From an uncultured Acidimicrobiales bacterium (GTDB taxonomy: Bacteria; Actinomycetota; Acidimicrobiia; Acidimicrobiales; SHLQ01), in NCBI GenBank assembly GCA_937969565.1, contig CALBVR010000255.1, positions 1 to 34,602 on the forward strand: a DNA stretch of 34,602 nucleotides, read 5' to 3'. Both the position numbers and the translations under genes were made by a program. A model generated the notes under the pieces. That model saw nothing but the letters and a program-made list of their open reading frames with translations. It was not told the DNA's origin and did no database searches. Position 1 is the first letter of the stretch. Each line of letters starts with the position of its first letter. Of the stretch, positions 12,115 through 16,256 are shown one piece after another.

Positions 12115-13482
12115 TCAGGCCGCGCCGGCCTCGGCCAGTTCGTGCTTGAGTCTCGCTTCGTCGTAGCGACTGAACAGAGCCGCAGCGACTGCGTAGAGGA
12201 TGGCGCCACCGACGCCGGTGAGCCGCACGCCCAGGTCGTCTCCAACGTCACGACCGAACTGCAACAGCAGGGCGAACATGACCACACCAAGCGTGGTCGC
12301 CAGCTTCTGCAAGAAGGTGCGGGTGGCGTAGAACATGCCGGCCTGTGCCTCCCCGCCGGTACGGGCGGCATGCTCGGCGATGTCGGCGAGGATCCATTGC
12401 GGCATCACGCTCAGGATCGCGAACGGCAGAGCGAACACGGCGATCGGCAGTGCCGCCTGGAGGAAGGGCAGCTGGTCGAGCAGGCCCATACCGGTGATCG
12501 CGAGGAACACGAAGGCGGCGAGCAGGAACGCGAAGATCGTGAGTCGCTTGCCGCCACCTTGGCGCCGAGCCCACTTCGCCACGAGTGGAAAGAGGCCGGC
12601 CGAAACCACGACCATCAACAGGAGCAGGACGGTGGACACCCACTCGTCCAGTTCCAGAAGCACCGTCACGTAGAAGAGCACGCCGGTTTGGATGATGGCG
12701 AGGCCACCGAAGTAGGCGAAGTCGGCAGCTGCGTAGAAACGGAAGAACGGGTTCCGCAGCACGGTCCGGATCGATGCCCGCAAAGGCATCGTCGACGGTT
12801 CGTTGTGGGCCCAACGGGGTTCGTCGATCTTGACCACTGGGATGAGCATGAATCCCAACGCGATCACGCAAACGACAACGACGGAGACCTGCCACGCCCG
12901 GAAGGTCTCCAACGGACCGTCGAGCGCTGGAGCGATGAAGAAGGTCATCGCAGCGATGACGAGGCCGATGGCCCACGCCATCGAAGTCCACGTGGACAAC
13001 GTGAGACGTTCCTCCGGGTTCGCCCCCAGGTCGGCCACCAGGGCGAAGGCCGGCGTGACGTAGGCCGTGAGACTGACGTAGAGCAGGACTTGGATGCCGA
13101 GCAGCCACACGATGTTCCAGCCGCTCTCGTTTCCGACCGGCGGAACGAACATCAAGATGGTGGCGACGGTGGCGGGCACCATCCCGGCAGCCATGAACGG
13201 AATCCGTCGACCCCGACGATGCGTGCTGCGGTCCGACCACGCGGCGATGAGCGGATCGGTGATCGAGTCGGTCAAACGGCCGGCGGCGGCGATCAAGGCC
13301 ACCACGTTCAGGATGCCAAGCACCGTTGCATCAGTGACCAGCGTGGGGAGGCCCGCAGTGTCGGGCGGAAGGTAGAAGAAGACGAGCAGCGTGTTGAGCA
13401 GGTTCATCAACACCGACATGCCGAGGTAGCCGGCGGCCAGCGCGAGGATCACCGATCGTGGAAGGGGTTCGGCCCGACTCAT
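12115..13482 (-). CDS. MFS transporter, GPH (glycoside-pentoside-hexuronide:cation symporter)-like
   Basis: About 12 hydrophobic segments; AGRLTDSITDPLIAAWSDRSTHRRGRRIPFM motif typical of MFS_2/GPH transporters. Confidence 0.87.
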   Translation of the reverse strand: MSRAEPLPRSVILALAAGYLGMSVLMNLLNTLLVFFYLPPDTAGLPTLVTDATVLGILNVVALIAAAGRLTDSITDPLIAAWSDRSTHRRGRRIPFMAAGMVPATVATILMFVPPVGNESGWNIVWLLGIQVLLYVSLTAYVTPAFALVADLGANPEERLTLSTWTSMAWAIGLVIAAMTFFIAPALDGPLETFRAWQVSVVVVCVIALGFMLIPVVKIDEPRWAHNEPSTMPLRASIRTVLRNPFFRFYAAADFAYFGGLAIIQTGVLFYVTVLLELDEWVSTVLLLLMVVVSAGLFPLVAKWARRQGGGKRLTIFAFLLAAFVFLAITGMGLLDQLPFLQAALPIAVFALPFAILSVMPQWILADIAEHAARTGGEAQAGMFYATRTFLQKLATTLGVVMFALLLQFGRDVGDDLGVRLTGVGGAILYAVAAALFSRYDEARLKHELAEAGAA

Positions 13483-15611
13483 CGGTAGTCGACCCGATCG
13501 ACCAGGAGGCCCTCGCTGGTGAACAACTCGATCAGCTCACCGTCATCGTCGAGCTCCGCACCCTCATCCCATTCGATGGCGGCGACGCCCGGGTGCCGGT
13601 CGTTGAACCCGACCAGATCATTGGTCACGACGACGAAACCATCTGGCTGGATGGTGGTGCCCGACGGGAAGGTGAGCAGACCGTCGAGCGAGAAGTCAGC
13701 GAGATCGACGGCCGCAGCTTCGAGGTTGAGTAGTTCGACGAACTCCGGCCCGTCGTCTGCAGGGTTGTAGTGGATCTCGTTGATCACCACGTCGGGTGCC
13801 TCGACGAACTCGACCTGCACCACGACGATGCTGGTCGCGGGCACGAGTGTCGAGAGCGCTCCGTCCTCGATTGTGAATGCCAGATCGCTCGTACGCGTCG
13901 GAGTCGCATCATCCGGCCCCTCACCGGCAAAGACGATCCGTTCCGCTGCCGTGGTGATGAACCGCTCATCGAGGGTCACCGCGATCTCCTGGTCGGCCGT
14001 TCCCTTGTTCAGGAGGTGCACGATGACCGAGCCGGTCTCCGCGTGGATGGAAGGCCACACCTCGATGTTTCCCTGACGCGGCGGGGACTCGAGGAGCTGC
14101 GCAGTGTCCATGGTGTCGGCAAACAGTTGCGCGGCCATTCCGTTGGGCGTGAGTGCGTTGAGATCGTCGTTGAAGAACACGTTCGAGTCGTCGCCGATGA
14201 AGTCCTCTCCGGACCAGGGCGTATGCGTGGTCCAGAGCAGCGACGCGACGACGTTCGGCGTCGAGTGCTGGTGGACCAGCATCTCGAAGAGCGCCAGGGC
14301 CTTCGTCGTCGTGATCGCATCGCCGTTCAGCCAACGCTGTCCCAGGCTGTTGGTCTCCGTGACCAGGATGGGAGTGTCCGGCACCGCTGACTCGGCAACG
14401 AGGCGTTGCATGTTCGTGATGTTCGGAACCGGGTCGTCGAGCGAACGACGCCAATCATCATGGTCATCAAAGTGCAGGTACTGATGCACACCGGCGAAGT
14501 CCATCTCGCCCTCGATCGTCGCGAAGACCTCGTCGCTGTATGGCGACAGCCCGATGAGACCCGGGCCGATGGAGATGGAGGGATCGACGGCTCGCATCGC
14601 AGCCGCGAAGTCCAGGTACAGCGCGCTGTACTCAGACGATGTGAGGACGGCATCGGACGGATGGTCGGCCTCATTGCCGATCTGCCAGTGATCCACCTCC
14701 AACCCATTGTCCATGGCGTAGCGAACCCACTCGACCGCCGTCTCCCGGAGGATCTCGTAGGACGGTCCGTTCGCGTATTCATGAGCGGCTGCATTCACGA
14801 CCACAACCGTTGCGGCATCGAGTTGGACACTCATGTCGATGAACTCGTCGAAGTCCATGGCGTCGATGAGTGCGCCGTCGGGTCCGACCGCCCAGGACCA
14901 GTCCCGATTGCCGGGTGTTTGCAATCCGGGCGTCTCGTGTTGAGACGCGATTCGAGGCTGGAGCTCCTGATTCCATGGCGGGGTGTTCCACAGATAGTTG
15001 TCGGACAGATGGCCGAAGGGGAACCGCAGGATCTGGGCACCCAGGTCGTCAATCGCCTCGACGTTCGAACGCGTTCGAGGGCGGTGGATGTCCGAGTCGA
15101 GCAGCCAGTTGAGCCCGAGGCCAAGTCCAATGACTTCGTCGGGTCGGGGCACGAAGCGGGTCGGATCGACGGTCACGTCAATCCGTGGCGGCGTGTTCGG
15201 CACGGCGGCGCACGGCGCATGCTGGGAGAGCGTTCCGTCCGGTGACTTCGCCGCCACCCGGAAGTCGAAGTGGTCGAGCTCGGGAAGGTCGGTTGCGAGG
15301 TGCTCGGTGTCCGGCGCGAGCGGGGCGCCGTCCCAGGTGAAGTCATGGCCGTTGCGCGACTTCTCGACGACGTACTTCTCCACGTTCGCTCCGTCGTGGT
15401 TCCACGTGACGAACGCTGTCGGTGCGAACGGCGTGCGATCGACGACGCAGTCGACGGGACTGGTCGGCGGATTCGCATCGTCGGCGGAGACGGGCGAGGT
15501 CTCCAGCACGATCTGGACGACGAGCGCGAGGACGAGGCATGCGCCGATCACTGCCAGGACACGGCTGCGCGCCGCGGTCTGTGCCGCCATGCTGTCCCTC
15601 CATCCAACCAA
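13479..15611 (-). CDS. Secreted multidomain clan GH-A-like glycoside hydrolase: FN3-like, TIM barrel, C-terminal lamin-tail domain
   Basis: N-terminal signal/TM (VLAVIGACLVLALVVQIVLE); IGNEADH (acid/base-like) and ILVTETNSLG (nucleophile-like) motifs; C-terminal PDVVINEIHYNPADDGPEFVELLNLEAAAVDLADFSLDG lamin-tail signature. Stop overlaps the transporter ATG (ATGA). Confidence 0.75.
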   Translation of the reverse strand: MVGWRDSMAAQTAARSRVLAVIGACLVLALVVQIVLETSPVSADDANPPTSPVDCVVDRTPFAPTAFVTWNHDGANVEKYVVEKSRNGHDFTWDGAPLAPDTEHLATDLPELDHFDFRVAAKSPDGTLSQHAPCAAVPNTPPRIDVTVDPTRFVPRPDEVIGLGLGLNWLLDSDIHRPRTRSNVEAIDDLGAQILRFPFGHLSDNYLWNTPPWNQELQPRIASQHETPGLQTPGNRDWSWAVGPDGALIDAMDFDEFIDMSVQLDAATVVVVNAAAHEYANGPSYEILRETAVEWVRYAMDNGLEVDHWQIGNEADHPSDAVLTSSEYSALYLDFAAAMRAVDPSISIGPGLIGLSPYSDEVFATIEGEMDFAGVHQYLHFDDHDDWRRSLDDPVPNITNMQRLVAESAVPDTPILVTETNSLGQRWLNGDAITTTKALALFEMLVHQHSTPNVVASLLWTTHTPWSGEDFIGDDSNVFFNDDLNALTPNGMAAQLFADTMDTAQLLESPPRQGNIEVWPSIHAETGSVIVHLLNKGTADQEIAVTLDERFITTAAERIVFAGEGPDDATPTRTSDLAFTIEDGALSTLVPATSIVVVQVEFVEAPDVVINEIHYNPADDGPEFVELLNLEAAAVDLADFSLDGLLTFPSGTTIQPDGFVVVTNDLVGFNDRHPGVAAIEWDEGAELDDDGELIELFTSEGLLVDRVDYR

Positions 15612-15647: not shown

Positions 15648-16256
15648 TCAGGTGGTCGGGAGGGCTTCGAGTTTCTCTGCGAGTTTCTCCGCCGTCGACT
15701 GGTGCAGTGTTTCGACCGTACCGTCGGCCTGAAGAATGGCGAACGCCGGAAAACTCAGCACACGATGCTCGTCGGCCAGAGCGTTCGCTTCCTGGCGGCT
15801 CGAGTCACCGCTGATGTGTGGGAGATCCTGCGCTCCACCTTCCTCGATGAAGCGGAGGAGCTGGGGCTCGGCCCCGTCCAGCGCAACACCGATGATGGTC
15901 ACGTTCGGATATTGCTCCTGAATGGCCACGACCGTGGCCGCCTCGCGGCGACAGCGCGTTCACCACGGCGCCCAGAACCACAGGACGGTGTCCTGCCCTT
16001 CGATCGACCCTGGATCGATCTGGCCGCCGCCCACGAGATTCCAGACGACCGGCGCTGCGGTCGTGGTCGTGGTGCTCGTGGTCGTGGTGCTCGTGGTCGT
16101 CGAGACCGATGTGGTGGGCGCGACCGTTTCACCGCCGACCGCAGCGACGTCCACCGCCGCCCCATCCGGTTCGACCAGATCCACGGTGTCTCCGTCGTTC
16201 GCACAGGCGCCGGCCAGCAAGCCGAGCGCAAGGAGCAACGGGATCACGAAACGCAC
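15648..16256 (-). CDS. Candidate selenocysteine-containing TlpA/thioredoxin-like lipoprotein (Sec = TGA at 15960-15962, residue 99)
   Basis: From GTG 16256: VRFVIPLLLALGLLAGACANDGD...SVSTTTSTTTTSTTTTTAAPVVWNLVGGGQIDPGSIEGQDTVLWFWAPW-[TGA]-TRCRREAATVVAIQEQYPNVTIIGVALDGAEPQLLRFIEEGGAQDLPHISGDSSRQEANALADEHRVLSFPAFAILQADGTVETLHQSTAEKLAEKLEALPTT. Both halves in one frame; TGA replaces the first Cys of WAPWCxxC; the FPAF cis-Pro segment is present downstream. Confidence 0.75.
15924..15939 (-). promoter_or_regulatory. Candidate bacterial SECIS hairpin GGCCAC-GGUC-GUGGCC
   Basis: Perfect 6-bp stem, 4-nt GGUC loop; loop starts 27 nt after the in-frame UGA (- strand). Confidence 0.65.

Follow-up and report, generated by a model that had tools for sequence, protein, structure and literature searches.

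The window analysed here, a stretch of 34,602 nucleotides from an uncultured Acidimicrobiales bacterium, carries on its minus strand a thioredoxin-like gene with a single in-frame UGA, and raises the question of whether the stem-loop that lies within the reading frame right after this codon, as expected of a bacterial SECIS, serves to recode it as selenocysteine (Sec) or arose by chance in GC-rich DNA. A first-pass annotation of the sequence had described the hairpin as SECIS-like while allowing for chance, and had proposed a covariance-model search of the stretch after the UGA as well as a comparison of conservation and compensatory changes between homologs with UGA and homologs with cysteine (Cys). 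Our analysis along these lines indicates that this thioredoxin-family gene, lipoprotein-like and of the UxxC type, almost certainly contains a canonical bacterial SECIS.

Results

A GGUC hairpin follows the in-frame UGA

Re-reading of the minus strand returned the hairpin as it had first been described (15924-15962 including the UGA, with a 6-bp stem, a GGUC loop and a 27-nt spacing): the 5' arm (15939-15934) and the 3' arm (15929-15924) form a perfect 6-bp stem around the loop (15933-15930), and 26 nt separate the UGA from the loop, which begins at the 27th nt past it. The competing CGCC-GCGA-GGCG hairpin, said to overlap the base of this stem, is real as well (15950-15939). In unconstrained folding the free 48 nt favour the alternative fold (-20.5 kcal/mol, z = -0.98 vs. 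shuffles); we have dropped single-sequence folding as proof of the hairpin, since the free 48-nt RNA takes the competing helix and is no more stable than shuffled sequences. The GGUC stem forms with a probability of 0.98 once the UGA and 9 nt are withheld from folding, which is apt because a ribosome holding the UGA in the A site would shield those nucleotides; the worry over the competing helix is answered because that helix needs nucleotides close behind the UGA.

A perfect 6-bp GGTC hairpin occurs once in the whole window on either strand, against 0.35 expected, and GGUC with a stem of at least 6 bp has p = 0.023 when the window's own protein is written with random synonymous codons. Given these two values, the window hairpin taken alone is weak evidence and only suggestive. 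The reservation that it might be a chance product of GC-rich DNA therefore stands for the window by itself, but is excluded by the comparative tests across the family. An Rfam search of the window gave no match, a result that is uninformative about bSECIS elements.

Features of the selenoprotein gene in the window, with the loci of the UxxU clade
Feature	Position	Strand	Remarks
Thioredoxin-like selenoprotein gene	15648..16256	-	GTG start at 16256; 202 aa with U99; TGA end 15650-15648
Probable lipoprotein signal peptide VRFVIPLLLALGLLAGAC (Cys18)	16203..16256	-	Lipobox-like LAGAC, read by eye
In-frame UGA, selenocysteine codon	15960..15962	-	Residue 99, motif WFWAPW-U-TRC; UGA likewise in the ortholog and 76 family members
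Family covariance model match, UGA to +48	15912..15962	-	Model R2, 44.0 bits, E = 2.4e-14
Competing CGCC-GCGA-GGCG helix	15939..15950	-	Particular to the window sequence; absent from the family consensus fold
SECIS apical stem-loop GGCCAC-GGUC-GUGGCC	15924..15939	-	Covarying stem, near-invariant loop across the family
UxxU loci	L067 at G000:C240:11238-12280		L067 in own genome; also L060, L063-L065, L068, L069, L072, L073, L077, L080, L082, L083, L097

The hairpin is conserved and covaries among UGA homologs

We searched 119 related genomes and found homologs in 43, most of them with an in-frame UGA; the 85 loci that were read comprise 62 UxxC, 14 UxxU and 9 CxxC forms, i.e. 76 Sec genes, thioredoxin-like and with the UGA in the active site. 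All but one of the 76 Sec genes (75) have GGUC at an identical spacing from the UGA, and 72 of them close it with a stem of three or more base pairs, whereas the synonymous-codon null predicts 4.1 and reached at most 13 in 2000 draws.

Compensatory changes are abundant among these homologs. In a gapless alignment of 74, the stem shows 60 double changes vs. 13.9 after shuffling; pairing amounts to 91.1% vs. 79.6%; and covariation is 0.422 vs. 0.199; none of 500 shuffles reached the observed values. The pairing signal is lost when the structure is slid by 1-3 columns. The commonest stem-loop is CUGC-GGUC-GCAG, and others read CUAC-GGUC-GUAG or CCAC-GGUC-GUGG, so that both arms change in step; RNAalifold on its own recovers the identical 4-bp apical stem. 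Beneath this stem the family commonly has a 1x1 mismatch and three further pairs, where the window has six unbroken pairs instead; in the outer consensus stem, the window departs from standard pairing at two base pairs.

These observations bear on the explanation that the GGUC hairpin has no function and simply results from encoding a conserved peptide, E-A-x-x-V-[AV], in GC-rich DNA. The stretch does encode a conserved helix, and the p value of the window alone leaves room for such an origin; under the same null, however, the family count of 72 far exceeds the expectation, and codon choice is skewed: GCA accounts for 51 of 54 Ala codons at +11 (16% elsewhere), and Val is encoded by GUC in 76 of 76 (49% elsewhere). 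Cys homologs encode EAP..V without the hairpin, and the stem covaries. We consider a by-product origin very unlikely, and for the family as a whole it is refuted.

Cys homologs lack the hairpin

The hairpin that marks 72 of the 76 UGA genes in the first set is found in none of its nine Cys genes, and a second set of 54 further homologs from named genomes repeats the pattern, with the hairpin in 31 of 32 Sec genes and in 0 of 22 Cys genes. Two outcomes that the first-pass annotation had held against a SECIS, a hairpin unconserved among UGA homologs or equally present in Cys homologs, are both contradicted by these counts. On the tree the hairpin is kept in no Cys row; the Sec/Cys label changes 7-8 times most parsimoniously and at least three times on well-supported branches alone, for a tree built on few columns. 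Two genomes (G013 and G009) contain both Sec and Cys forms, with the hairpin on the Sec copies only.

The proposed covariance-model search, with a model (R2) from whose training the window and its ortholog were left out, found the window at E = 2.4e-14, the next best match in the window scoring 9.8 bits. On the second set, none of the 32 Sec genes fell below 40.9 bits under R2 and no Cys locus rose above 18.0 bits, although such a model learns coding sequence too, which inflates its bit scores beyond the structural contribution. We treat the covariance score as a secondary argument, the synonymous-codon and pair-count tests being cleaner. It is because of the comparative tests across relatives that the hairpin lies far beyond chance.

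The source genome encodes the selenocysteine machinery

SelA and SelB genes lie side by side in the same genome, SelB carrying a C-terminal wing domain (SelB-wing_3); SelD is present, itself with an in-frame UGA (motif HGAGUGCK), and a tRNA-Sec was detected (Rfam and ARAGORN). By its named relatives the genome belongs to Acidimicrobiales, with JAHDEJ (MAG-179) as the closest record. Across genomes, SelA occurs in 35 of the 36 with the Sec form, the exception being 73% complete, and among the 39 genomes lacking SelA this 73%-complete one is the only one with a Sec form.

The distribution of the machinery weighs on a second explanation, namely decoding of the UGA without SelB, as Trp or Cys or by simple leakage. 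UGA can leak, and the proteins have UxxC, in which Cys would work too; yet other genes here terminate at UGA, the window gene included (15650-15648), the UGA is confined to the catalytic chalcogen position with the hairpin alongside, the Sec form tracks SelA, and the genome, SelD included, has the full Sec machinery. Decoding by any of these routes seems highly improbable to us.

The window gene is predicted to be translated past the UGA

Read with selenocysteine, the window protein consists of the signal peptide, a Thr/Ser-rich linker and a thioredoxin domain, in which U99 aligns with the Cys of homologs, placing Sec at the first active-site Cys position; FPAF, C-terminal to WFWAPW-U-TRC, is a probable cis-proline loop. 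The fold is that of thioredoxin, as sequence matches to Pfam Thioredoxin (PF00085, 6e-8, 33.1 bits vs. a cut-off of 23.5) and to the nearest solved structures in the PDB (DsbF 3ios, 9e-12; MPT53 1lu4, 2e-11) already fix. The product, which has the redox motif U-T-R-C within this fold, is probably exported and lipid-anchored, and its role is most likely that of a DsbE/DsbF/TlpA-like thiol-disulfide oxidoreductase with selenocysteine as the attacking residue. Directly downstream, a 710-aa ORF (13479-15611, minus strand), Thr/Pro-rich and secreted in appearance, has a C-terminal lamin-tail domain (PF00932).

An ortholog from an independent MAG (G007:C94) is 96% identical and has the UGA at the same place. 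Of the codon changes that separate the two genes past the UGA, 24 are synonymous and 3 nonsynonymous, and codons +6 to +16, which contain the hairpin, have none; this ratio argues that the downstream protein is under strong purifying selection. An artefactual UGA, whether from faulty sequencing or as the stop of a pseudogene, that ends an ordinary CxxC thioredoxin chain is extremely improbable and is refuted by the comparison: the window does come from a fragmentary MAG (67.5% complete, 436 contigs), but the UGA recurs in the independent MAG and in 76 family members, purifying selection is strong past it, and the downstream frame is intact with thioredoxin features up to the C-terminus.

A sister clade has two UGAs and one hairpin

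The UxxU genes form one supported group of 14 on the tree. In each, the motif UPFU or UPTU is encoded with two UGAs at a spacing of 9 nt, and one GGUC hairpin follows, 26 nt past the first UGA and 17 nt past the second. The two distances fall within the published range of 16-37 nt, and a further conserved hairpin downstream is not predicted in this clade. We lean towards the view that the single GGUC hairpin recodes both UGAs.

Discussion

Our data establish the sequence of the hairpin, its conservation and covariation, its absence from Cys homologs, the machinery genes and purifying selection past the UGA, and together with the compensatory changes and the cognate machinery in the genome they support the SECIS reading. 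We hold with high confidence that the hairpin is a bacterial SECIS, and that SelB, once attached to the GGUC stem-loop, supplies Sec-tRNA(Sec) to a ribosome positioned at this UGA. In such a mechanism, as a ribosome arrives at the UGA (15962-15960), SelB would grip the stem-loop 26 nt downstream with its C-terminal winged-helix region; SelB, carrying GTP and Sec-tRNA(Sec), would then deliver selenocysteine to the A site in place of release factor 2 action. For the window system we infer SelB binding, actual recoding, export and the redox role from the sequences.

In the E. coli fdhF SECIS, SelB reads a GGUC loop at the tip of a short, GC-rich stem; the upper part of that stem contains a bulged U, and the loop lies some 8 nt nearer the UGA than in the window. 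The likeness to fdhF noted in the first-pass annotation thus holds for the GGUC loop and the GC-rich stem; it does not extend to the bulged U, which the six unbroken pairs of the window lack, or to the spacing, which is about 8 nt longer.

The published bSECIS model places the element in the coding region directly after the Sec-UGA, with a small apical loop at a distance of 16-37 nt that has G in its first two positions and then G or U (PMC13188914). The early G that had been cited as a requirement of bacterial SECIS elements is part of this published description, and GGUC agrees with it; the window loop, 26 nt from the UGA, fits the model, and nothing in the window breaks it. Within that model the family is distinguished by a nearly invariant GGUC loop, a stem of 4 bp and, beneath that stem, a conserved 1x1 mismatch.

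SECIS elements and UxxC/UxxU thioredoxin-fold selenoproteins are already known (PMC13188914, PMC9312934, PMC2398784). Table 1 of PMC13188914 lists a 'Prx-like thiol:disulfide oxidoreductase' (UxxC, UxxU) and a 'thiol-disulfide isomerase-like protein' (cd02966, UxxC); our family resembles both as a thioredoxin-fold oxidoreductase with Sec for the first Cys, and UxxU forms exist. Mycobacterial DsbF (3ios) and MPT53/DsbE (1lu4) are likewise exported actinobacterial thioredoxin-fold oxidoreductases, but have CxxC where the window has UTRC. The WFWAPW-UxxC group of Acidimicrobiia matched no named entry, the broad entries of that Table 1 being compared by description only. No NCBIfam 20.0 model exceeded its cut-off for four members (best: ResA, 32.4 of 170; WAxxUGC_long, 19.6 of 300), and a literature search of limited coverage found no description of Acidimicrobiia selenoproteins. 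The mechanism is known, while the WFWAPW-UxxC protein family seems to be unnamed, judged from limited libraries.

The family provides a large and clean natural data set for one bacterial SECIS, with more than 100 genes that have it and 31 Cys relatives that do not, and it reveals a group of exported thioredoxin-like selenoproteins, present in multiple copies in Acidimicrobiia, which automatic annotation would probably cut short. UxxU is known elsewhere, and the UxxU clade is a variant, no new kind. Because the sister clades UxxC and UxxU share one hairpin, they allow the spacing rule for SelB-dependent recoding to be put to the test; if one hairpin does recode both UGAs, the family would be a natural series for how one SECIS serves two codons.

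The source appears to be a selenoprotein-rich actinobacterium, judging by SelD and at least five further thioredoxin-like UGA genes in its genome (L047 on C430, L049 on C268, L067 on C240, L094 on C395 and L193 on C307). Weak matches of model R1 in the same genome (E of 1e-2 and worse) look like chance. L193 (G000:C307:13224-13265), the best weak match, was rejected as a GGUC-hairpin gene: it has a real thioredoxin-like frame (WFWSPHUPTC), but is without the GGUC hairpin. It and L194 (G007:C2:203252-203293) represent a divergent lipoprotein-like WFWSPH-U-PTC gene present in two genomes; with the GGUC hairpin absent at the usual place, their SECIS, if any, is of another form. The SelD gene (L008:1534-1590) has a SECIS-like hairpin of its own, GGCGCAC-GUC-GUGCGCC, about 33 nt past the UGA in HGAGUGCK.
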